A stretch of 64,000 nucleotides of DNA from Sphingomonas yabuuchiae (GTDB taxonomy: Bacteria; Pseudomonadota; Alphaproteobacteria; Sphingomonadales; Sphingomonadaceae): positions 1-64,000 of the forward strand of contig NZ_LDTF01000015.1 in the NCBI RefSeq assembly GCF_001477495.1. Reading direction: 5' to 3'. Of this stretch, positions 50,737 to 64,000 are shown one piece after another. How positions within the stretch are numbered: position 1 is the first letter of the stretch; each line of letters opens with the position of its first letter. The translations under genes were made by a program, and so were the position numbers. Below the pieces are notes generated by a model, which made no database searches, was not told the origin of the DNA, and worked only from the letters and a program-made list of their open reading frames with translations.

Positions 50737-51381
50737 TCAGGACGGATCACTGCCCTCGGCCGCCGGTGCGGCCTTGGGCAGGTCCACCTTGATCTCGACC
50801 CGGCGGTTCTTGTCGCGCCCCTCGGGATCGTCCGATCCGTCGAGCTTGCGGTTGGGAGCGATCGGCCGCGCTTCGCCTAGCGCGATGACGGTGATCCGCT
50901 CCGCCGCGACGCCCTTCTTGACCAGATAGTCCCGCGCCGCCTCGGCCCGCTTGCGCGAGGCGATCAGGTTGGAAGCATCCGAGCCGGAGGAGTCGCTATG
51001 TCCCCAGATGGTGATCGGCCCGCCCAGTGCGAGCACGGGATCGGCGGCCAGCGTGTCGAGCAAGGCCATTCCCGCCGGATCCGGCTGGGCGCCCTTGGCC
51101 GGGAACGGAACGGTCAGTTCGACCGGCTCGGCGGGCGGGGTCGGGGTGGGCGAAGGTTCGACATCCGGGCGGATGATCGATTTCTTGGCCTCTTCGGGTT
51201 CGGCCGCTGTCGCAGCGTTGCCCGGCACAGTCATATTGCTCTCGGCCTCGACATTGGCCGGGGCTTCGGCGACTTCATTCGCGGCCGGTTCGCGGCTTGG
51301 CTGACAGGCGGTGATGCCCAGCGCGATCAGGGCCGTCGCGACGGCGCGCGCGGACCGGATGGTTCCTGTCGGTATCGTCAT
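50737..51381 (-). CDS. OmpA-family peptidoglycan-binding lipoprotein
   Basis: The 214-residue protein has a lipobox ALGITAC (Cys at 26). A low-complexity acidic/proline linker (about 30-90) is followed by an OmpA C-terminal domain (about 90-200): VELTVPFPAKGAQPDPAGMA, ITIWGHSDSSGSDASNLIAS with RKRAEAARDYLV, VIALGEARPIAPN and DKNRRVEIKV. Such lipoproteins tether the outer membrane to peptidoglycan. The ATG overlaps the stop of the CPA1 antiporter gene (ATGA), so its translation depends on the antiporter mRNA, an unusual pairing. Confidence 0.88.
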   Translation of the reverse strand: MTIPTGTIRSARAVATALIALGITACQPSREPAANEVAEAPANVEAESNMTVPGNAATAAEPEEAKKSIIRPDVEPSPTPTPPAEPVELTVPFPAKGAQPDPAGMALLDTLAADPVLALGGPITIWGHSDSSGSDASNLIASRKRAEAARDYLVKKGVAAERITVIALGEARPIAPNRKLDGSDDPEGRDKNRRVEIKVDLPKAAPAAEGSDPS

Positions 51382-53213
51382 GCGACTACCTCTCCCGTTT
51401 CGAGGACCTGATTAGCGTCCGGATCGCCGTGACGCGAGGGGCCGTAGGATATGACGATATCACCATTTTGCGGCACCGGCCGGGCGGCATGGGTGAAGAA
51501 GCGGATCACCCCGTCCTTGCGCAGCACGAGCAGCATGTCGGCCTCGTCCGGCAGGATCGACCGGGCATGGTCGAACTTGAACTGCTCGCTGATCCGCGTC
51601 TTGCGGAAGGTCCAGCCCGCCGCCTCGCGCCGCAGAATGTCCTCGACGCCGTGCCCGGCGGTGAACATCGCGCGGCCGCGAAGGGCTTCGGGCAGGCGGC
51701 GATGATCCTCATGGTCGCCGCTGCCGCCGAGCTGGTAGACCGAATCCCGGCCGATATCGTGGGCGAACTCGCTACAGACCAGCGCGTTATACGCCTCGTT
51801 CTCGGTCGTCGCGACCAGCACCTGGAACTGGGTGAGGTCGAGCCGCTCCTCGGTCGTCTCGGCCAGGATCTCGCCATGATAGGTCTCGATCCCCGCCTGA
51901 CGTGCAGCCGATAGACGCTGCCAGCTGGTGTCGACGATCATCACGGGCAGGCCCAGCGAATGGATCTGGCGGGCGAGCGAGATGCTCCACGGCGTGCTGC
52001 CGACGATCAGCAGCCCCTTTTGCGTGGCCCCCGTCACCTTCAGCCAGCGCGCGACATGGCGGATACTGAAACCGTGCGCGATGATCGTCGCGACCACCAC
52101 CGCAAAGGACAGGGTCACGAGGATATTGCCGTTGCCATAGCCCAGCTGGTCGAGGCGCAGCGCGAACAGACCCGACACCGCCACCGCGACGACGCCGCGC
52201 GGCGCGATCCACGCGATCAGCAGCCGTTCGTTCCAGGGCAGCTTGCTGAAGGCCAACGCGATCAGCACGGTCGCCGGGCGGACCAGGAACATCAGCGCGA
52301 ACAGGAAGGCGGCGAAGCGCCATTCGAACAGGCGCAGCACCTCGAAATCCAGCGAGGCGGACAGCAGCACGAACACGCCGGAGATCAGCAGGACCGTCAC
52401 ATTCTCCTTAAACGGATGAATGTCGCGCAGCGAGTCCAGTCGCATATTGGCGATCGCGATGCCCATCACCGTCACCGCCAGCAGCCCGGTTTCCTGCTGG
52501 ATCAGGTTGGACAGGACGAAGGTGCCGATCACCGCCACCAGCAGCACAGGGGCTTTCAGATATTCGGGCACATGGCCGCGCGGAAAGGCCCAGGCGATGG
52601 CGCGCGCCATGCCATAGCCGATCAGCCCCGACACCACCGCCGCGCCCAGCAGCGCGATGACGACCGACGCCAGCGTGCCGCCCTCGTCGACGCGGCGCAG
52701 ATATTCATAGGTAATGACGGCGCACAGCGCGCCGAAGGGATCGTTGACGATCGCTTCCCATTTCAGGATCGCACGCGGGCGAGCCGCGATATTGCTCTGG
52801 CGTAGCAGGGGAATGACGACGGTCGGCCCCGTCACGACGAGGATACCGGCGAACAGGATCGCCACCGGCCACACCAGCCCCGCGACATAATAACAGGCCA
52901 GCGACCCCAATACCCAGCCCAGCGGGATGCCGATCGCCATCAACCGCGTGACGGCCCCTTCGGTCTTGCGCAACTCGCGGAAATTGAGGCTCAGCCCCCC
53001 CTCGAACAGGATCAGCGCGACCGCCACCGAGATCATCGGCTCCAGCAGATCGCCGAAGGTGTGTTCGGGAATGATGAGGCCGGTGATCGGCCCGGCGATG
53101 ACGCCTGCGGCCAGCATCAGGGCGATGGCGGGCCACCCCGTCCGCCACGCAATCCACTGCGCACCGATCCCCAGAACACCGATCAGCGCGAAAACAAGTG
53201 CTTGTTGTTCCAT
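51378..53213 (-). CDS. CPA1-family Na+/H+ antiporter with RCK (TrkA-N) domain
   Basis: The 611-residue protein has about twelve membrane helices (residues 5-400). CPA1 signatures are ALILFEGGLSLNFRELRKTE, FAGILVVTGPTVVIPLLRQS, WEAIVNDPFGALCAV (the ion-binding ND pair) and AWIAPRGVVAVAVSGLFALR. A cytoplasmic NAD-binding RCK domain (about 415-535, LLIVGSTPWSISLARQIHSL) and a TrkA-C-like tail follow. It would exchange Na+ or K+ for H+, gated by nucleotide binding. The ATG at 53213 begins MEQQALVFALIGVLGIGAQW; longer frames upstream read non-membrane sequence. The stop overlaps the start of the OmpA-like lipoprotein gene. Confidence 0.92.
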   Translation of the reverse strand: MEQQALVFALIGVLGIGAQWIAWRTGWPAIALMLAAGVIAGPITGLIIPEHTFGDLLEPMISVAVALILFEGGLSLNFRELRKTEGAVTRLMAIGIPLGWVLGSLACYYVAGLVWPVAILFAGILVVTGPTVVIPLLRQSNIAARPRAILKWEAIVNDPFGALCAVITYEYLRRVDEGGTLASVVIALLGAAVVSGLIGYGMARAIAWAFPRGHVPEYLKAPVLLVAVIGTFVLSNLIQQETGLLAVTVMGIAIANMRLDSLRDIHPFKENVTVLLISGVFVLLSASLDFEVLRLFEWRFAAFLFALMFLVRPATVLIALAFSKLPWNERLLIAWIAPRGVVAVAVSGLFALRLDQLGYGNGNILVTLSFAVVVATIIAHGFSIRHVARWLKVTGATQKGLLIVGSTPWSISLARQIHSLGLPVMIVDTSWQRLSAARQAGIETYHGEILAETTEERLDLTQFQVLVATTENEAYNALVCSEFAHDIGRDSVYQLGGSGDHEDHRRLPEALRGRAMFTAGHGVEDILRREAAGWTFRKTRISEQFKFDHARSILPDEADMLLVLRKDGVIRFFTHAARPVPQNGDIVISYGPSRHGDPDANQVLETGEVVA

Positions 53214-53396
53214 GGTGCCGTGTAACTCATGGGCCCACCAAAGGTAACCGCCGCCCCGCCAAATGCGGCACGCCGGGCACGATCCGCCGAAAAGGGAGCG
53301 CGCTTGACCTGAAGCATATCCAAGGGCTGGTCCGCCGCCTACAGTTGCGCCGGCGTCGCAAGACGGTAGTTTCGGCGCCCCTTTCACCTCAACGCC

Positions 53397-56300
53397 ATGG
53401 CCGGATCATCGATGGACCGTAACGACAGCGACGCGCCCGAGAGACGCAGGCTTGCGGCGTTGGATCGCTATGGCGTGATGGACACGCCGCGCGAGCCGAC
53501 TTTCGACGAACTCGCTGCGCTGACCGCCAGGCTGTGCGATACGCCGATCGCGGTCGTGAACCTGGTCGGCGAAGGACGCCAGTTCTTCAAGGCGGAGGTT
53601 GGCCTGGGCGTGCGCGAGACGCCGCTGCACAGCTCCTTCTGCGCGCATGCGCTGCTGGAGGAGGATTTCCTGATCGTGCCCGACCTGCGCGAGGATGCGC
53701 GGTTCGCCTGCAATCCGCTGGTCACGGGGTCCCCGCATATCCGGGCCTATGCGGGCGCCTTGCTGAAGACCGGGGACGGTTTGGCGATCGGCACGCTCTG
53801 CGTCCTCGACCATCGGCCGCGTGCCTTCACCGATGTGCAGCAGGAAACGCTGCGCGTGCTGGCGCGGCAGGTGATGGCGCAACTCGATCTGCGCCGCTCC
53901 GTCCAGGACCTCGACCGACAGAATGAGGCCCTGCGGGCCAGTGAGGAACGGATGCGTCTGATCCTCGACAGCGCGCGAGACTATGCGATCATCGCGACCG
54001 ACACCGATCGGCGGATCACCAGCTGGTCGGCGGGGGCGCAGGCCATCTTCGACTGGCGCGACGGGGACGCGATCGGCCGCTCCATCGACGAGATTTACGG
54101 CCCCCAGGACCGTGCCGACGGCATTCCGGTCCGGCACATGGCCCGTGCCGCCGCGGAGGGTTGCGCGCCGGACCTGCGCTGGCACCGCAAACCGGACGGC
54201 GCGCTCGTGCTGCTCAACGGCACGACCCATCCGATCAGGGACGGCGGCGACCGGATCATCGGCTATCTGAAGATCGGCCGGAACGAGACCGAGGACCGCG
54301 CCCGGGACGCCGAGCTGGCGCGGGCGCGGGTCGAGCTGGTCGACAGCGAGGACCGGTTCCGCAACATGGCGGACCATGCGCCGGTGATGATGTGGATCAC
54401 CGATGCGGACGGTGTCTGCACCTATCTCAACCGACGCTGGTACGAATATACCGGTCAGACATGTGACGAAGCGCTGGGCTATGGCTGGCTCGACGCCACC
54501 CACCCCGACGACCGGGCCGAGGCGGAGCGTATCTTCGGCCAGGCCAATACGACGCATACCTCGTTCCGCATCGACTATCGCCTGCGCCGGGCGGACGGGT
54601 CCTATGGCTGGGCGATCGATGCCGCCTCGCCGCGTTTCGGCCCGGATGGCGAGTTTCTGGGCTATATCGGCTCGGTCATCGACATCGCCGACCGGCGCGA
54701 GGCCGAGGATGCCCTGCGTCACGCCAATGCCATGCTCGCGGCGGTCATGGAGGCGGTGCCGGGCGTCGTCTATGCCAAGGACAGCAGCGGGCGGATGCTC
54801 GCCGCCAATCGCGGGACCGTCGAACTGGTCGGCAAGCCGATCGAGGCGATCATCGGGCATACCGATCTGGAATTCCTGGACGACCGGGCGCAGGCGGAGA
54901 TCGTCATGGCCAATGACCAGCGGGTCATGGCCGAAGGTCGGACCGAAGTCCTGGAGGAACAGGTCGACTTCCCGGACGGAACGCACGCGACATGGCTGTC
55001 GACCAAGGCCCCGTTCCGCGATGCGGCGGGCCATGTCGTCGGACTGGTCGGCTCGTCGATCGACATCACCGAGCGCAAGCGGGCCGAGGAAGCGCTGCAG
55101 CGGATGAACGAGACGCTGGAGGACGAGGTCGCCGAACGCACCGCCGAGCGCGACCGCATGTGGGATACCTCGCCCGACCTGATGCTGGTCATCGATTTCC
55201 ACGGCGTGGTCCGGCGGGTCAATCCGGCCTGGACCAATCTTCTGGGCTATGATCAGGCCGAACTGGTCGGCCGTCACGTCAACGAATTCGTCGTGTCCGA
55301 GGATCATGACGACACGGTATATGCCTATGAACTGGCGGCGAACGGCGGCAAGCCGGTGGTGCAGAACCGGTATCGTCACAAGGACGGCTCGATCCGCTGG
55401 ATTTCCTGGAACGCAGCGCCTGCCGGCGACATGACCTATGCCACCGGCCGCGACGTGACCGCGCAGAAGGAACAGGCGCTCGCGCTGGCGCAGGCCGAGG
55501 AACAGCTCCGCCAGGCGCAGAAGATGGAGGCGGTAGGCCAGCTGACCGGCGGCCTGGCGCATGACTTCAACAATCTGCTGACGGCGGTGACGGGCGGCCT
55601 CGAACTGCTCGCCATGCGGATCGCCAGGGGGCAGCACGACCAGCTCGACCGCTATATCTCCATGGCGCAGAACGGGGCGCACCGGGCCGCCGCGCTGACC
55701 CAGCGTCTGCTCGCCTTTTCGCGGCGACAGACGCTGGCGCCCAAGCCCACCGATGTCGATCGCCTGATCGCAGGGATGGAGGACATCATCGTCCGCACCA
55801 TCGGTCCGGCCATCGAAGTAAAGTTCGTTTCCGCGCCGGGCGTATGGCCGATCCTGGTCGACGCACCGCAACTGGAAAGCGCGCTGCTGAACCTGTGCAT
55901 CAACGCACGCGACGCCATGCCCGAGGGCGGCAGGCTGACCATCGAGACCGCCAACAGGACGCTTGACGCCCGCGCGGCGGCGGCGCAGGACCTGCCCGCA
56001 GGCGACTATGTCTCGCTCTGCGTCACCGATACCGGCACCGGCATGACGCCCGAGGTGATGGCGCGTGTCTTCGACCCCTTCTTCACCACCAAGCCGATCG
56101 GCGAGGGCACCGGGCTGGGCCTGTCGATGATCTATGGTTTCGTCCGCCAGTCGGGCGGCCAGGTCCGCTTCCATTCGGAAGTCGGCACCGGCACCACCAT
56201 GCGACTATACCTGCCCCGCCTGCCCGGTGAGCATGAACTGGCCGATCGAAACGAAACCGCCACGAACCGGCACCGCGCGCACGACGGGGAGACGGTCCTT

Positions 56301-56651
56301 CTCGTCGAGGATGAAGGCGCGATCCGCGATCTGGTCGGCGAGGTATTGCGCGATGCCGGATATCGCGTGCTGACCGCCGATAACGGTCCGATGGGCGTCT
56401 CGCTGCTCCGATCGGACGAACGGATCGACCTGCTCGTCACCGATGTCGGCTTGCCCGGTGGACTGAACGGCCGTCAGGTCGCCGATGCGGGCCGGGCGGT
56501 TCGCCCAACACTCAAGATCCTGTTCGTCACCGGCTATGCCGCCAATGCCGCGGTCGGCGCTGGCCATCTGGACGAGGGCATGGAGGTGCTGACCAAGCCG
56601 TTCAACGTGTTGGAACTGGAACGCCGCGTCGGCGAGATGCTGTCGGGCTGA
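53397..56651 (+). CDS. GAF/multi-PAS hybrid sensor histidine kinase with C-terminal receiver
   Basis: The protein is 1084 residues and has no membrane helix. Order: GAF (about 20-165, [40 protein letters not shown]), four PAS domains (about 180-295, 315-435, 440-560, 575-690) and HisKA with His722 in [20 protein letters not shown]. HATPase (about 810-935, [33 protein letters not shown]) and a receiver (about 960-1080) with Asp1016 in [11 protein letters not shown] close the chain. It probably integrates redox or light cues through the PAS domains. It is alone on its strand; the start may be ATG 53397 or 53412. Confidence 0.94.
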
Positions 56652-57458: not shown

Positions 57459-58520
57459 ATGGCGAAGACGGCATTGGTGGTGGGCGCGAGCGGGATCGTC
57501 GGCAGCGCGACGACGGCGCTGCTGGTGGAACAGGGCTGGACCGTCCATGGCCTGGCCCGCCGGCCGACCGCACAGGCGGGCGTGCATCCGGTCGCCGCCG
57601 ATCTTCAGGACCCGAGCGCGACGACGGCGGCGCTGCGCGATGTGAACCCCGATGCGGTCTTCATCACCACCTGGGCCCGACAGGACAGCGAGGCGGAGAA
57701 TATCCGCGTCAACGCCGCGATGGTGCGCAACCTGCTCGACGGGCTGCGCGGGGGCACCGGCCCGCGCCATGTCGCCCTGGTCACGGGCCTCAAACATTAT
57801 CTCGGTCCGTTCGAGGCCTATGGCAAAGGCACGCTGCCGCAGACACCGTTCCGCGAGGAACAGGGTCGGCTGGACGTCGAGAATTTCTACTATGCGCAGG
57901 AGGACGAGGTGTTTGCCGCCGCCGAGCGCGACGGCTTTACTTGGAGCGTGCATCGCCCGCATACCGTGATCGGGCTGGCGGTCGGCAATGCCATGAACAT
58001 GGGCACGACGCTGGCGGTCTATGCGACCTTGTGCCGAGAGACGGGGCGACCCTTCGCCTTCCCAGGCTCCGCCGCGCAGTGGTCGGGGCTGACCGACATG
58101 ACCGACGCCGGGCAACTCGCCCGCCATCTTCTCTGGGCGACGGAGACAGAGGCGGCGCATGACGAGGCGTTCAACGTCGTCAATGGCGACGTCTTCCGGT
58201 GGCAGTGGATGTGGGGCCGCATCGCCGACTGGTTCGGCGTCGAGGCCGCGCCGTTCGACGGCATCGTGCGGCCGCTGGAGCAGCAGATGGCGAACGATGC
58301 GGCGCTATGGCGCGAGATCGCCACGCGGGAGGGGCTGGTCGAACCGGATCTGAACCGCCTCGCCTCGCCCTGGCACACCGATGCCGATCTGGGCCGCCCG
58401 GTCGAGGTCGTGACCGATATGTCCAAGAGCCGACGGCTGGGCTTCACCGGCTATCAGCCGACCGACGACGCCTTCTTCGCGCTCTTCGAACGACTCCGTG
58501 ACGACCGCCTGATTCCGTAA
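57459..58520 (+). CDS. PRISE-type SDR oxidoreductase
   Basis: The 353-residue atypical short-chain dehydrogenase has its NAD(P)-binding GASGIVGSA at 8-17. The blocks LVTGLKHYLGPFEAYGKGTL, TPFREEQGRLDVENFYYAQE and FTWSVHRPHTVIGLAVGNAM match the progesterone 5-beta-reductase/iridoid synthase-like (PRISE) enzymes that reduce activated C=C bonds of enones. AAAGGAGG precedes the ATG. It is divergent from an HxlR regulator, a common arrangement for electrophile-inducible reductases. The substrate is unknown. Confidence 0.87.
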   Translation: MAKTALVVGASGIVGSATTALLVEQGWTVHGLARRPTAQAGVHPVAADLQDPSATTAALRDVNPDAVFITTWARQDSEAENIRVNAAMVRNLLDGLRGGTGPRHVALVTGLKHYLGPFEAYGKGTLPQTPFREEQGRLDVENFYYAQEDEVFAAAERDGFTWSVHRPHTVIGLAVGNAMNMGTTLAVYATLCRETGRPFAFPGSAAQWSGLTDMTDAGQLARHLLWATETEAAHDEAFNVVNGDVFRWQWMWGRIADWFGVEAAPFDGIVRPLEQQMANDAALWREIATREGLVEPDLNRLASPWHTDADLGRPVEVVTDMSKSRRLGFTGYQPTDDAFFALFERLRDDRLIP

Positions 58521-58931
58521 GGAGGGATGCAAGGGAGAACCATCAAATCCGGCAGCGTCGAGGGGTTAGCACCATGATTCGGTCCTTCGGCGTTGCCGCC
58601 AACTCCGTCGCCGCCCGCCTCACAAACGGACTGCGGGTGGCGTGGGCAAAAAATATTTTTGGCTCACAGCCCGACTTCCAACTGATGCCGAGGCAACAAC
58701 AATATTCAATGATCTATGATAACGCTATCATCAATCAATTTCGGACCGTGGCGCAATTTTCAGCATGTTAGCGTCGGTTTGATCAAATAATGACCAATTT
58801 CATACCATTTTGCCTCGGGGCACCGATGCATCACGGGCGACGAATCTATCGCTCAACCCGCTTGATCCCCGCTGGCCGGACGGCAATCGATTTATAAAGT
58901 GTTAGAAATTTCCATGTGACCGGTACCGGGC
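58521..58931. other. 411-bp intergenic region upstream of the FNR-box chemoreceptor
   Basis: This stretch is AT-rich towards its right end and includes TATAAA at 58893-58898, a possible -10 for the chemoreceptor gene. A 65-codon frame at 58574-58771 has no family resemblance, and I do not call it a gene. TTGATCAA occurs near 58778 without the FNR spacer. No hairpin stands out. Confidence 0.4.
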
Positions 58932-58945
58932 TTGACGCAGGTCAA
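58932..58945. promoter_or_regulatory. FNR/FnrL box immediately upstream of a chemoreceptor gene
   Basis: TTGACGCAGGTCAA is TTGAC-N4-GTCAA, ending 20 bp before the chemoreceptor ATG at 58966. Class II activation would place the transcript start inside the gene, and if the TATAAA at 58893 is the -10, the box lies downstream of the start. The position therefore suggests repression at low oxygen rather than activation. Confidence 0.72.
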
Positions 58946-58965
58946 TGTCACAAACGGGGAATATC

Positions 58966-60873
58966 ATGCGGGCCACCATCAAACTCAAACTGGGCGCGAC
59001 CTTCGCGGTTGTGCTCACATTGCTGCTGGGCATGGCGGCCCTCGCTGCCTCGAAGCTGAGCGAAATGAACGATGTCACGACCCAGCTCGTCACTGGCCCG
59101 GTGGCCCGATTGGATCGTGCCGAAACGCTGAACGAGCGCATCAGCTATGCGCTTCGCATGGAAAAGAACCTCGCACTGTCGTCCGATGATCAACAGATGC
59201 GCGTTTTCGACGGCGACCTGATGCGGGCTCGCACGGACATAACGTCGCTGATCGAAACCGGCCTGGCGACCGCGACGCCGGCGGGCCGACCGATCTGGGC
59301 CGAGATCAAGAACGACTATACGGCGTGGCTGCCCATCAATGACACGGTCCGCCGCTTGGGCCTGGCCAATCACAACGAAGAAGCCGGTGCGTTGTCGATG
59401 ACGAAATCGCGCGAATTGGCTGCCAAGATCAGCGAAGGGACGATGCAACTCGTCAAGAATGCCAAGACCGATATGGACGCCGCCAAGCAGAATGCCGACG
59501 CCATCTACAACAGCGCGCGCAACACGCTGTTCGTCATTTCGGGCCTCGCGCTGCTGATCGCGCTGGTTGGCGCGGTATGGATCGCCCGGATCGTGTCGCA
59601 GGGTCTGAAGAGGATTTCGGTCGCGATCGAGGCGGTGGCCATCGGCGATATCGAACAGGAGGTGACGGTCACCACCAATGACGAGATCAAGGATCTGGTC
59701 GACACGGTGAACCACATGACCGTCAATCTGCGCCAGAGCGCACGGCTGGCCGATACCATCGCCGAGGGTGACCTGAGCATCGATCACCAGGCGCTGTCGG
59801 ACAAGGACCTTCTGGGCCACGCCCTGATCCGCATGACCACCAACCTGCGCAAGTCGGCGGAACTGGCCGAGACGATTGCGGGCGGCGACCTGACCGTCAA
59901 CCACCGGCCGCTTTCGGACCGGGATTCGCTGGGCCAGGCGCTGGTCATGATGATCGAGCGTCTGCGCGGTGTCGTCGGCGACGCCACGCTGGCCGCCAAG
60001 AATGTCGCGGCGGGCAGCCAGCAGCTGTCCTCGTCGTCGGAGCAGATGTCACAGGGCGCGACCGAACAGGCGGCAGCGGCCGAGGAAGCCTCTGCCTCGA
60101 TGGAGCAGATGGCGGCGAACATCAAACAGAATGCCGACAATGCCAGCCAGACCGAAAAGATCGCCCGCCAGTCCTCGCAGGATGCCGAGATGAGCGGCGC
60201 GGCCGTGCAGAAGGCCGTCGGCGCGATGCGCACCATCGCCGAGAAGATCGGCATCGTGCAGGAAATCGCGCGCCAGACCGACCTGCTCGCGCTGAACGCC
60301 GCGGTCGAAGCGGCGCGCGCGGGCGAGCATGGTCGCGGCTTCGCGGTCGTGGCCGCCGAGGTCCGCAAGCTGGCCGAACGGAGCCAGGTCGCGGCGGGTG
60401 AGATCAGCGGCATGTCCTCCGACACGGTGGCGGCGGCGCAGCAGGCCGGGGAGATGCTCGGATCGCTTGTGCCCGACATTCGCCGCACCGCCGAGCTGGT
60501 CGCCGAGATCAGCGCCGCGTGCCGCGAACAGGATATCGGAGCGACCCAAATCAATGCCGCGATCCAGCAGCTCGATCAGGTCACGCAGCAGAACGCCGCC
60601 GCCTCCGAGCAGATTTCGGCCACCTCCGAGGAACTCGCCAGTCAGGCCGAGGAGCTGGAGGAAAACATCGCCTTCTTCCGCATCGACAGCGGCAAGCGCA
60701 GCGCAGGCCGCCCATCCGCCTCGGCACGCGCGGCCACGCCCGCCAAAAAGGCCAAGCCCGCCGCCCGCACAAACGCGGTCGCCGACCAACAGGCCCGCAT
60801 CCGCGGCTTTGCGCTAGACATGTCGACCGGCGGCCCGGACGGTGAAGACGCCGATTTCGGCCGCGCCGCCTGA
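58966..60873 (+). CDS. Methyl-accepting chemotaxis protein with tandem HAMP units
   Basis: The protein is 635 residues. The first membrane helix (about 9-29) precedes a helical periplasmic sensor (about 30-180) of the four-helix-bundle kind, and the second helix lies near 185-205. HAMP and two further HAMP-like repeats span about 205-335; the last two are near-duplicates ([20 protein letters not shown] and [20 protein letters not shown]). The signalling domain has its tip at about 435-475 ([20 protein letters not shown] and [18 protein letters not shown]). An alanine/lysine-rich tail follows. The start at 58966 has GGGGAA 5 nt upstream. An FNR box precedes it, so oxygen probably influences its expression. 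Confidence 0.93.
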
Positions 60874-60887
60874 CGGGCGGACGCATC

Positions 60888-60903
60888 CCCGGCGGAAGCC
60901 GGG
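60888..60903. terminator. Short GC hairpin between convergent genes
   Basis: CCCGGC-GGAA-GCCGGG is a perfect 6-bp stem with a GNRA-type tetraloop, 14 bp after the chemoreceptor stop and convergent with the LysR gene. No T-run follows. It is a candidate terminator only. Confidence 0.4.
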
Positions 60904-61021
60904 AGCCGGATGGGGAAAGCGCCCGCCGTTCGATCGGGCCGTCCCGTCACTGGCCCCCGGCCTCCGCCGGAGTGGTGCGTGAGGGGACGGCACGCCATCG
61001 CCGAACGCGCGAACGGCCCCC

Positions 61022-61927
61022 TCACCCCGCCAGCAACGTCCGCGCGCATCCCTGCACATGATCGGCGATCAGCTTGAACGCCGCGCTCATCGGCGATTGA
61101 CGGCGCCAGGCGATGGCGATCGACCGATGGGCGCGCCAACCCTGGACCGGCAGGATCTTCAATCCCGCCGCCCCGCCCACTTCCGATTGCAGATAAAGGC
61201 TGGGCAGCAGCGTCAGGCCCAGCCCGCTTGCGACCATCTGGTGCAGGCTTTCCAGGCTGGTGCCATAATAGTCCGGCGCGATGGTCATGCCATAACGGTC
61301 CGCGACCTCGGCCGCCTGCCGCGCCAGATGATGCCGCGGATCGAGCGTCAGAAGCGGACTGCCGCTCAGCACCTCGCGATCCGCCGCGATGGCGGCATCG
61401 ATCGGATGGTCGAGCGCCGCGACCAGATGCAACGGCTCGCGAAACAGGGGTTCGACGGTCAGGTCCTCGCCGGTCATGGGCAGCGGGCCGAGCAGCACGT
61501 CGATATCGCCGCGCGACAGCTCCAGCGCCTGTTCGTCCGGTATCCCCTCGCGCACATGCAGGCGCAAGCGCGGGGCCATGCGGTGCAGTTCGGCGATGAT
61601 CGGCGACAGCAGATACGGCCCCAGCGTCGGCGTCGTCCCCAGCTTCAGCGTGCCGGTCAGGCTGTCGGTCGAACCCGCCGCCAGCGCCACGATATCGCTG
61701 GCATCGCTCAACATGCGCCGCGCGGTCGCCACGATGCTGCGCCCGACCGGCGTCAGGATCGCACCCGTCGCACTCCGCTCCAACAGCCTGGCGCCCAGCC
61801 GCTCCTCCAGCGTCCGGACCTGCTGACTGAGTGTGGGCTGCGAGACATTGGCGACCCGCGCCGCCAGCGCAAAGGAACCCGTATCCGCGATCGTCACCAG
61901 ATATTCGAGTTGACGCAAGGAAAGCAT
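61022..61927 (-). CDS. LysR-family regulator, OxyR-like branch without redox cysteines
   Basis: The 301-residue LysR protein has its HTH at about 3-60 (LRQLEYLVTIADTGSFALAA, SQPTLSQQVRTLEERLGARL). The substrate domain (about 90-295) contains TLKLGTTPTLGPYLLSPIIA and QMVASGLGLTLLPSLYLQSE. The overall pattern resembles OxyR, but the only cysteine is near the C-terminus (QGCARTLLAG), so the OxyR disulphide switch is absent. It is divergent from the ABC-exporter gene, whose start lies about 200 bp away, and may regulate it. The inducer is unknown. Confidence 0.9.
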   Translation of the reverse strand: MLSLRQLEYLVTIADTGSFALAARVANVSQPTLSQQVRTLEERLGARLLERSATGAILTPVGRSIVATARRMLSDASDIVALAAGSTDSLTGTLKLGTTPTLGPYLLSPIIAELHRMAPRLRLHVREGIPDEQALELSRGDIDVLLGPLPMTGEDLTVEPLFREPLHLVAALDHPIDAAIAADREVLSGSPLLTLDPRHHLARQAAEVADRYGMTIAPDYYGTSLESLHQMVASGLGLTLLPSLYLQSEVGGAAGLKILPVQGWRAHRSIAIAWRRQSPMSAAFKLIADHVQGCARTLLAG

Positions 61928-62125
61928 AAGGCCCTATAACCACTTTCTATACCCTGGGCACGGCAATTCCGATTGGCCACGACTGTGATATGTCGTTACA
62001 TCGACGTCACTAGGATCAGGCCGAAGCGTAACTTTCATGGAGGGGAACATGAGGGTGCTGCGGAGTGACGGTGGCCGTCGGCTGCCCGCTCCGGCTCGGC
62101 CAAGATACGAAAAAAGGGGCGTGTT

Positions 62126-63805
62126 TTGGCGGGACAACGATTGGGTTTTCGGGATGCGGTGGGCTGGCTGTCGCAGATCATAGGCCCTGATTCGGCCTAT
62201 GTCCGCCTCGGCATCGTCTATACCATCGCGATCAGCCTGTTGGCGTTGGCGACGCCCATCTCGGTCCAGTTGCTGATCAACAGCGTCGCCAATACCGCCA
62301 TGCCTGCCCCGCTCTGGGCGCTGTCGGGCGTGCTGCTGATGCTGTTGCTGATGGTCGCGGGGCTCAGTGCGCTCCGGGTGTGGATCATGGCCGCGTTCGA
62401 GCGTCGCCTTTTCTCCCGCGTGGTCGCCGAGGTCACGGTGCGTGCGGTCCATGCGCAGGATCCTTTCTTCGCCGACGGCAATCGAGGCGACCTGTTCAAC
62501 CGCTATTTCGATCTGGTGGTCGTCCAGAAATCGGTGCCCAGCCTGGTCATCGGCGCCTTCACCATCATGCTTCAGGCGGCGATCGGCCTGACCATCACCA
62601 GCTTCTACCACCCGGTCTTCCTCGCCTTCAACGTGGTGTTGGTCGCCGCACTCCTGCTGGTATGGATGCTGTGGCGGCGCGGCGCGATCAGCGGGGCGGT
62701 GGCGCTCAGCCATGCCAAGCATAATGCCGCGCGCTGGCTGGAAAGCGTCGGCGGGTCGAACGGCTTCTACAAGTCGCTGCGCCATCTCGACTTCGCGATG
62801 AACCGGTCGGAGGCGATGACGGCGAACTATGTCGACACGCATCGTCGCTATTTCCGCTATCAGTTCGCACAGACCATCGCCTTCCTGCTGATCTACGCCT
62901 TTGCCAGCGCCGGATTGCTGCTGCTGGGCGGCATGCTGATCCTGCGCGGACAGCTGTCGCTGGGGCAGCTGGTCGCGGCCGAGCTGATCCTGTCGGGCGT
63001 CTTCTACGGCATCTCGCAATTCGGCTGGTATCTCGACACCTTCTACGATCTGGTCGCCAGTTCCGAAGAGCTGTCGCTGCTGTTCGCCATTCCGCAGGAG
63101 CCGACCGTGCGCGGCGACAACGGCCCGCGTGACGGATCGGTCAAGCTGACCGATGTGGCGTTCAACGACGCACGCTATAATCTGACGCTGGCGGCCGGAG
63201 AGCAGCTCGTCACCGTGACCGAGCCGGGGGCCGAGCGACTGCTGGCGATGCTGCTGAAACGGCATTCGCTACCCGATCGCGGCCTGGTGCGGATCGGCAA
63301 TGCCGATCTGGGCTCATTCGACATGTACCGCCTCCGCTCGGACGTGACGGTGCTCGACCGTTCGACCATCGTCGAGGTGACGATCCGCGAATATCTGCGC
63401 CTCGCCTCGGGCGAACTCGCCGAAAAGGCGATGGAGGCGCTGGCGCTGGTCGGGCTGGAACGTCGTCTGGCGAGCCTGCCACAAGGGCTGGACACGCCGC
63501 TGGGTTCGACCGGCTATCCGCTGAGCGTCGGCGAGACGATGGCGCTGAAGCTCGCCAATGCCCTGCTGGTCGGCCCCAAGCTGCTGCTGCTCGGGCAACT
63601 TTACGACCTGTTGCCGCCCGAACGATTGCGCGCCGCGCTGCGGCTGTTGCGGGCGCATGGCACGACCGTGCTGCTGTGCACCGGCCGCCCCGAGGACATG
63701 GAACTCGACGGCTATCTCTATCTCGGTCTGACCGAGCAGCGTCGCTTCGAGCGGCTTGCCGACCTCCAGAACGCCTATCGCCGGGAGGACGCCGATGTCG
63801 CCTGA
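62126..63805 (+). CDS. ABC exporter-like protein with a catalytically dead nucleotide-binding domain
   Basis: The 559-residue protein has an ABC type-1 exporter membrane domain (six helices, about 20-310), then an NBD-like domain from about 335. Every catalytic motif is altered. The Walker A position reads TEPGAERLL (365-373; invariant Lys replaced by Arg371), and the signature is LSVGE (466-470). Walker B reads LLLLGQLYD (486-494; Asp to Gly490, catalytic Glu to Gln491), and the switch His is lost in LLCTGRPED. It cannot be a working ATPase. There is no N-terminal C39 peptidase. The start is TTG 62126 behind AAGGGG. The gene for an HlyD-like adaptor overlaps its end by 11 nt, so it belongs to a type 1-like export system. 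Confidence 0.88.
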   Translation: MAGQRLGFRDAVGWLSQIIGPDSAYVRLGIVYTIAISLLALATPISVQLLINSVANTAMPAPLWALSGVLLMLLLMVAGLSALRVWIMAAFERRLFSRVVAEVTVRAVHAQDPFFADGNRGDLFNRYFDLVVVQKSVPSLVIGAFTIMLQAAIGLTITSFYHPVFLAFNVVLVAALLLVWMLWRRGAISGAVALSHAKHNAARWLESVGGSNGFYKSLRHLDFAMNRSEAMTANYVDTHRRYFRYQFAQTIAFLLIYAFASAGLLLLGGMLILRGQLSLGQLVAAELILSGVFYGISQFGWYLDTFYDLVASSEELSLLFAIPQEPTVRGDNGPRDGSVKLTDVAFNDARYNLTLAAGEQLVTVTEPGAERLLAMLLKRHSLPDRGLVRIGNADLGSFDMYRLRSDVTVLDRSTIVEVTIREYLRLASGELAEKAMEALALVGLERRLASLPQGLDTPLGSTGYPLSVGETMALKLANALLVGPKLLLLGQLYDLLPPERLRAALRLLRAHGTTVLLCTGRPEDMELDGYLYLGLTEQRRFERLADLQNAYRREDADVA

Positions 63806-64000
63806 TCAGCTCACGCATTTCCGCACCCTTTCGTCGCTGCGCCCGCCTCGGGTCACGGTCGCCATCGCCTGGATCCTGACGGTCGGCATCGCGGCGGTCA
63901 TCTTCATCCTGTTCTTCGTGCCGTGGTTGCAGACCGCGCAGGGGCGTGGCCAGGTCGTCTCGCTCGATCCCACCGACCGCGCGCAGGACGTGACCGCGCT
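63795..64000 (+). CDS. HlyD-family membrane fusion protein, N-terminus only
   Basis: The gene is cut by the right edge. The 68 visible residues have a short cytoplasmic N-terminus (MSPDQLTHFRTLSSLRPP), one membrane helix (about 20-45, VTVAIAWILTVGIAAVIFIL followed by FFVPWLQ) and the start of a periplasmic domain (TAQGRGQVVSLDPTDRAQDV). The helix followed by QGRGQVVSLDP is typical of HlyD/EmrA-like adaptors of type 1 secretion. The ATG overlaps the end of the degenerate ABC gene, so the two are cotranslated. Confidence 0.85.
   Translation, partial: MSPDQLTHFRTLSSLRPPRVTVAIAWILTVGIAAVIFILFFVPWLQTAQGRGQVVSLDPTDRAQDVTA

Follow-up and report, generated by a model that had tools for sequence, protein, structure and literature searches.

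How does an ABC exporter subunit work if it has lost the residues that bind and hydrolyze ATP, and why is it encoded beside an HlyD-type adaptor? The question is raised by one end of the window, by which we mean the whole 64,000-nucleotide stretch analyzed (positions 1 to 64,000 of contig NZ_LDTF01000015.1 of Sphingomonas yabuuchiae). The initial annotation had proposed that such a subunit implies an obligate active partner, a role in gating, or energy drawn from something other than ATP. We refer to the gene as degABC. The features of the locus are as follows.

61022-61927, minus strand: LysR-type regulator, divergent from degABC (Pfam LysR)
62126-63805, plus strand: degABC, an ABC exporter half with a membrane domain and a catalytically dead nucleotide-binding domain (NBD) (ORF, Pfam, alignment, AF2 model)
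62126-63115, plus strand: membrane domain, residues 1-330, exporter-type helices (Pfam, AF2 model)
62717-62719, plus strand: Lys198, part of the family signature S195xxK198; lies within the modeled long helix 163-210, presumably on the cytoplasmic side
62981-62983, plus strand: Glu286, family-invariant, within modeled TM6 (a helix beginning at 279), presumably in its periplasmic half; found in 0 of 22 canonical exporters
63128-63802, plus strand: degenerate nucleotide-binding domain, fold retained in the AF2 model
63218-63244, plus strand: Walker A site TEPGAERLL, P-loop Lys absent (alignment)
63359-63361, plus strand: Q-loop site, Arg412 in place of Gln; 120 of the 123 distinct sequences have Arg here (alignment)
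63521-63535, plus strand: signature site LSVGE (alignment)
63581-63598, plus strand: Walker B site LLLLGQ, Asp and Glu gone (alignment)
63683-63685, plus strand: switch-His site, Gly520 (alignment)
63795-64000, plus strand: 5' part of the HlyD-type periplasmic adaptor gene, which ends at contig position 64871
Contig 64868-66319, beyond the window: TolC-type gene following HlyD

The degABC gene and its operon

The degABC open reading frame begins at a TTG codon and encodes 559 amino acids with zero internal stops, and a gene of equal length annotated on the Sphingomonas parapaucimobilis plasmid NZ_CP155757.1 is 99.3% identical to it, so the intact frame noted at the outset stands. The motif readings TEPGAERLL, LSVGE and LLLLGQ and the missing switch His all fell at the correct places in our alignment, and the Q-loop Gln, a loss absent from the earlier list, is gone as well (Arg412). 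At the level of sequence, degABC is confirmed as an intact ABC exporter half without ATPase residues. Profile searches recognized it only at threshold, with 28.4 bits to Pfam ABC_membrane (cut-off 28) and 24.9 bits to ABC_tran (cut-off 25). NCBIfam scores all fell far under the curated cut-offs: the best model, type_I_sec_HlyB (TIGR01846), gave 97.7 bits (cut-off 725.55), TIGR03375 89.6 bits (693.1) and TIGR01842 52.0 bits (510.15). Some database records nonetheless name family members "ABC transporter ATP-binding protein" despite the lost residues.

The window is carried on a 97,856-base contig, which we followed 17 kb further to the right. This extension contained the TolC-like gene that the initial annotation had suggested looking for, followed by a convergent EAL-domain gene; a second ABC gene was not found beside the operon, and the idea of an active partner next door was not borne out. 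The reported overlap is real, since the HlyD start at 63795 lies 11 nt inside the degABC gene. Pfam assigned HlyD_3/HlyD_D23 to the adaptor, OEP to the TolC-type gene and LysR to the divergent gene, whose counterpart on the S. parapaucimobilis plasmid is named "hydrogen peroxide-inducible genes activator".

Gene order from 57459 to 64000 of the window matches NZ_CP155757.1:86843-118519, part of the 138-kb plasmid of S. parapaucimobilis YK209, and this common order indicates that the window is probably on a secondary replicon. Upstream of the operon lie a Na/H antiporter-like gene (51378-53387), a PAS-rich hybrid histidine kinase with a receiver (53397-56651) and a methyl-accepting chemotaxis protein gene (58945-60873); genes for a chemotaxis protein and an antiporter are annotated in the plasmid relative as well, which downstream carries a Cas3-type helicase and a DISARM drmD gene. 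An anti-phage role was considered and rejected, PADLOC giving no match for the degABC, HlyD and TolC proteins.

A conserved family with shared motif loss

Whole-genome searches at E <= 1e-30 identified relatives in 32 of 101 genomes from the same genus and 56 of 296 from the same order. At E <= 1e-25 there were matches in 4 of 385 genomes across the class (in G459, to a canonical exporter only) and 11 of 398 across the phylum; these samples overlap and each includes the window's own genome. A scan of the GTDB collection at a loose threshold confirmed at least 559 of 593 candidate stretches, and the best 80 were kept. After removal of one canonical sequence (L046, used as a control) and its context (L083), the alignment held 129 close rows, that of the window included; dropping six duplicate rows left 123 distinct sequences, from Sphingomonadales, Alteromonas, Xanthomonas, Parvularcula and others. 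The 22 canonical controls came from the same genome, the same genus and one other alphaproteobacterium. Our search of the open-licence literature found no description of such a family.

Among the 123 distinct sequences the Walker B Asp and the Q-loop Gln were never present, the Walker B Glu occurred in five and a His at the switch place, as aligned, in three. A Lys stood at the Walker A place in one sequence, outside any P-loop, and a signature of the S-A/G-G type was seen in a single row (L029); the A-loop Tyr was also missing from the close family. All 22 canonical exporters had the Walker A Lys, Q-loop Gln, Walker B Asp and Glu and switch His, with a slightly variable signature and the A-loop Tyr in 20. 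Degeneration common to 123 distinct sequences is more than chance, and the relatives with intact Walker A and B motifs that would have pointed to a recent pseudogene or sequencing error did not appear among them.

The initial annotation had judged the gene maintained rather than decayed, and three lines of evidence agree: conservation across the family, full-length open frames in all 80 of the best GTDB loci, and dN/dS ratios (11 pairs drawn from 9 sequences) of 0.05-0.10 in the membrane domain and 0.06-0.26 in the NBD, which at the level of sequence is under purifying selection. Conservation of the membrane domain exceeded that of the NBD in all five identity bins within the family, in contrast to canonical pairs, where it was the lower of the two in all four bins that held them. 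An AF2 model built from 52 sequences (pLDDT 80.6, pTM 0.67) had the ABC exporter fold; its best Foldseek match was HlyB of the HlyB/D complex (8dck_A, E 3.2e-19, TMq 0.68), and residues 328-550 aligned with the TAP1 NBD (2ixe_A) with Z 21.8 and 2.5 A over 220 residues. Taken with the lost residues, the model predicts an NBD that folds without its chemistry.

The three genes occur together. In the 80 best GTDB loci HlyD followed degABC in every case and TolC in 77, the other three ending at a contig edge, while in the window's own contig and 39 further genomes, some sharing loci with the 80, similarity searches found HlyD in all 40 and TolC in 39 of them. Over 120 family contexts the totals were 120 for HlyD and 116 for TolC; a 594-amino acid frame occupies the TolC place in L082. 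The consensus of 77 aligned adaptors carried the signature FEGWPxxQFSGWP. In a plasmid collection, 18 records matched the ABC protein and 20 the adaptor (query the window's HlyD, 1e-8), with 16 in both sets at adjacent coordinates. The four adaptor-only records were from Riemerella, and the one inspected carries the whole trio, its ABC gene lying outside the matches of the ABC search. The trio also lies on pNL2 of Novosphingobium aromaticivorans DSM 12444. Two of the 18 ABC records lacked a neighboring adaptor match: in Sphingopyxis 113P3 the match ends at residue 422 beside an IS3 transposase, and in Sphingobium TKS an IS3 transposase occupies the adaptor place. These two transposases, behind the family gene at 6310-7673 of L231 and 6700-8063 of L232, have the same annotated length. 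These exceptions to the trio look like breakage, and in genome G006 too the family ABC is in two overlapping pieces.

A LysR gene lay directly upstream, in either orientation, in 43 of the 117 contexts with enough sequence. ORF clustering of 41 contexts found no recurring substrate or accessory gene; the clusters consisted of LysR, with antisense shadows, and of sensor and TonB-type genes without a fixed place. Thus, of the type 1-like secretion unit first proposed, the complete HlyD/TolC operon stands, while secretion itself gains no recurring candidate substrate gene nearby. Together, the LysR-type regulator and the absence of a recurring substrate gene suggest that the substrate is a small molecule rather than a protein. 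The regulators appear to differ in kind; a divergent LysR gene of Alteromonas (L107, 4958-5885) appeared NhaR-like by eye, unlike the OxyR-like regulator of Sphingomonas.

Far relatives with the family adaptor and membrane signature turned up elsewhere in the phylum (L052, L099-L103) and among Bacteroidota (Persicobacter, Aureibacter and Riemerella plasmids), and GWP-type motifs recurred in their adaptors. The decay of the NBD differs among them: L052 and L099 retain GxxGSGKS/T with LSGGQ and the Walker B Glu gone, a P-loop-like Lys is kept in Persicobacter and Riemerella, and the P-loop is gone from L100 to L103 and from Aureibacter. Given the P-loop-like Lys in L052, L099, L104 and Riemerella (L229), some members of the wider clade may still bind nucleotide. 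TolC is annotated in the Riemerella and Aureibacter loci. The trio of the Riemerella anatipestifer plasmid (L229, 3732-8086), which keeps the P-loop Lys and has lost the signature and Walker B Asp, lies near cell-wall genes, namely a UDP-MurNAc ligase/alanine racemase fusion and murB. The Persicobacter (724 aa) and L100 (776 aa) frames have an extended N terminus like that of type 1 secretion exporters, and at a guess this extension is C39-like.

A quick tree of the membrane domain alone (39 of the 129 close rows, 7 far and 16 of the 22 canonical sequences) placed the family on one side, apart from canonical exporters, with support of 85. Since the far members, some with a P-loop, nested inside the family on long branches rather than at its base, we claim neither one loss nor many, and a stepwise order of motif loss was not supported. 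The sole Xanthomonas copy in the tree (L160) nested among copies from the genus Sphingomonas, which, with the OxyR-like LysR gene directly upstream of the Xanthomonas copies, suggests horizontal transfer. One member comes from a MAG titled Klebsiella pneumoniae (L151), a title that is probably wrong, since in the tree it grouped loosely with MAGs of Alphaproteobacteria.

Energy source and possible partners

That so many species keep a gene for a dead ATPase intact beside the same two partners suggests that the exporter may use energy other than its own ATP. We compared the 136 family rows (129 close and 7 far) with the 22 canonical exporters for residues peculiar to the membrane domain. Lys198, Gln249, Glu286 and Tyr307 were present in all 136 rows and in no canonical sequence, Gln281 in all 136 rows and one canonical sequence, Ser195 in 134 rows and one canonical sequence, and His162 in 129 of 129 close rows, 5 of 7 far rows and one canonical sequence. 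Riemerella and Aureibacter retain Ser195, Lys198, Gln249, Glu286 and Tyr307, with Gln281 lost in Riemerella. TM6 begins at residue 279 in the model, which puts Glu286 some two helical turns in from an end that is presumably periplasmic. An ion-coupled permease would need an acidic residue that stays fixed however far the NBD has decayed, and on the alignment Glu286 plausibly fits. It favors a non-ATP energy source over a gating role, although Glu286 may instead serve in folding or adaptor contact.

There is a possible precedent in reports on LmrA and MsbA, where membrane domains without an NBD are described as transporting ethidium with protons and Glu314 in TM6 of LmrA as required (PMC2704374, PMC6155054, PMC4979069); for MsbA, the full-length protein is said to export better than the NBD-less one (PMC4979069). 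We liken Glu286 to Glu314 by analogy only.

Our best explanation is that degABC, HlyD and TolC form a dedicated three-part exporter in the envelope that descends from an ABC exporter of the type 1 secretion class, with degABC as an inner-membrane subunit that no longer holds the residues for ATP binding and hydrolysis. It would work as a homodimer whose dead NBDs only hold the dimer together and brace the intracellular loops; the membrane domains alone would move the substrate, driven by an ion gradient as in a secondary-active transporter. Glu286 would be the residue most likely to provide the coupling, and HlyD and TolC would carry the substrate outside. For this exporter ATP independence appears likely and ion coupling plausible. 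Taken whole, as a homodimeric, ATP-independent pump run by an ion gradient through Glu286, the explanation is offered tentatively, and we would give it somewhat less than an even chance. The broader proposal, that a natural ABC lineage in Pseudomonadota and Bacteroidota gave up ATP and became an ion-driven permease in an HlyD/TolC exporter with Glu286 as its proton or sodium site, is possible and more doubtful.

The main rival is a partner encoded elsewhere: degABC would be an inactive half that joins, as a heterodimer or in a mixed oligomer, an ATP-hydrolyzing exporter of the MsbA-like or type 1 secretion (T1SS) type, through which ATP would drive transport. PF00664 exporters occurred in all 101 same-genus genomes. 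Among genomes at least 90% complete, the mean number of PF00664 matches was 5.28 in carriers (n=29, degABC subtracted) and 4.13 in non-carriers (n=61; p 0.004, kinship uncorrected); this surplus of about one could reflect either a partner such as an MsbA-like exporter or genome history. Selection on the NBD and its modeled fold also accord with this reading, and mixed complexes are conceivable, one HlyD/TolC complex reportedly being able to hold three HlyB transporters.

Against it, our motif search found no intact ABC frame beside the family gene in 109 of the 120 contexts. The other 11 were L091, with two adjacent CydDC-like frames as judged by eye, and ten Xanthomonas contexts with an upstream exporter frame, which was MsbA-like by eye in the two contexts inspected. 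A LysR gene, OxyR-like, lies directly upstream of the operon in all ten (L150, L160, L162, L165, L166, L168, L171, L177, L178 and L182), and in two it was seen to lie between the exporter frame and the operon. A co-occurring T1SS-type partner was rejected as a candidate: with ten candidates scored per genome, a TIGR03375 match at 1e-90, a threshold that admits some MsbA-like exporters, was absent from 4 of 32 carriers and 7 of 69 non-carriers, showing no association with degABC (Fisher p 0.74). One of the four carriers without a match, the single-contig genome G010, had 32 PF00005 matches and six long single-match frames; three of the five frames examined were exporters, with MsbA_lipidA, MsbA_rel and HepA/PglK-like as best models and none over a listed NCBIfam cut-off, and none of these exporters was of the T1SS type. 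Judging from the motifs, pairing with degABC would moreover leave neither composite nucleotide site complete. We regard such a partner as unlikely, if still a serious contender.

Rather unlikely too is a passive gated channel or scaffold, in which degABC would dock HlyD and TolC and either let a solute leave downhill or lend the conduit to another pump. The strong conservation of the membrane domain would fit, as would the tie between adaptor and ABC gene, given that all 20 adaptor-matching plasmid records appear to hold a family ABC (16 by coordinates). A conduit open across both membranes is harmful unless tightly gated, however, and no other pump gene recurs beside the operon. That nucleotide binds without the classical motifs and gates degABC without hydrolysis strikes us as very improbable: the P-loop Lys retained in part of the far clade and the modeled NBD fold are in its favor, but the close family has lost the Walker A Lys, Q-loop Gln, Walker B Asp and A-loop Tyr. 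A pseudogene, frameshift product or sequencing error, as the few broken copies (Sphingopyxis 113P3, Sphingobium TKS and G006) might suggest, is ruled out for practical purposes by the family-wide conservation and shared degeneration, the full-length frames and dN/dS well under 1 in both domains.

Comparison with known systems

Type 1 secretion ABC exporters of the HlyB, LssB and PrtD types share with degABC the gene trio with HlyD and TolC and the domain folds; degABC has the exporter membrane domain, the NBD fold in the model, and HlyD and TolC beside the gene. It differs from them in lacking the catalytic motifs, in scoring far below the NCBIfam cut-offs, in its own set of invariant membrane residues and in having no recurring substrate gene nearby. 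HlyB also has an N-terminal C39-like domain, whereas the close degABC family begins at the membrane domain. Heterodimeric exporters (TM287/288, TmrAB, TAP and BmrCD), several of which were among the structural matches, likewise combine the exporter fold with a degenerate NBD. Those with a degenerate site are described as possessing a canonical second site (PMC7756269); degABC retains no catalytic motif, and no second ABC half was found encoded beside it.

A further comparison is with the engineered LmrA-MD and MsbA-MD, NBD-less exporter membrane domains reported to work without ATP, with a Glu in TM6 that matters in LmrA (PMC6155054, PMC2704374, PMC4979069). Those proteins are engineered truncations, and lone transport by an ABC exporter membrane domain has so far rested on them; degABC by contrast represents a widespread natural family that has lost its ATPase residues and retained the membrane domain, a dead NBD, the adaptor and the outer-membrane channel, so that transport by the membrane domain alone becomes directly testable.

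In the tripartite pumps EmrAB-TolC (MFS) and AcrAB-TolC (RND), an ion-driven inner pump is joined to an adaptor and TolC, and the inner-membrane fold is unrelated to that of ABC exporters. The adaptor and TolC arrangement of degABC is alike and its inner-membrane fold is not, so that an ion-driven permease here, if true, would extend gradient-driven tripartite pumps from the RND and MFS folds to a third.
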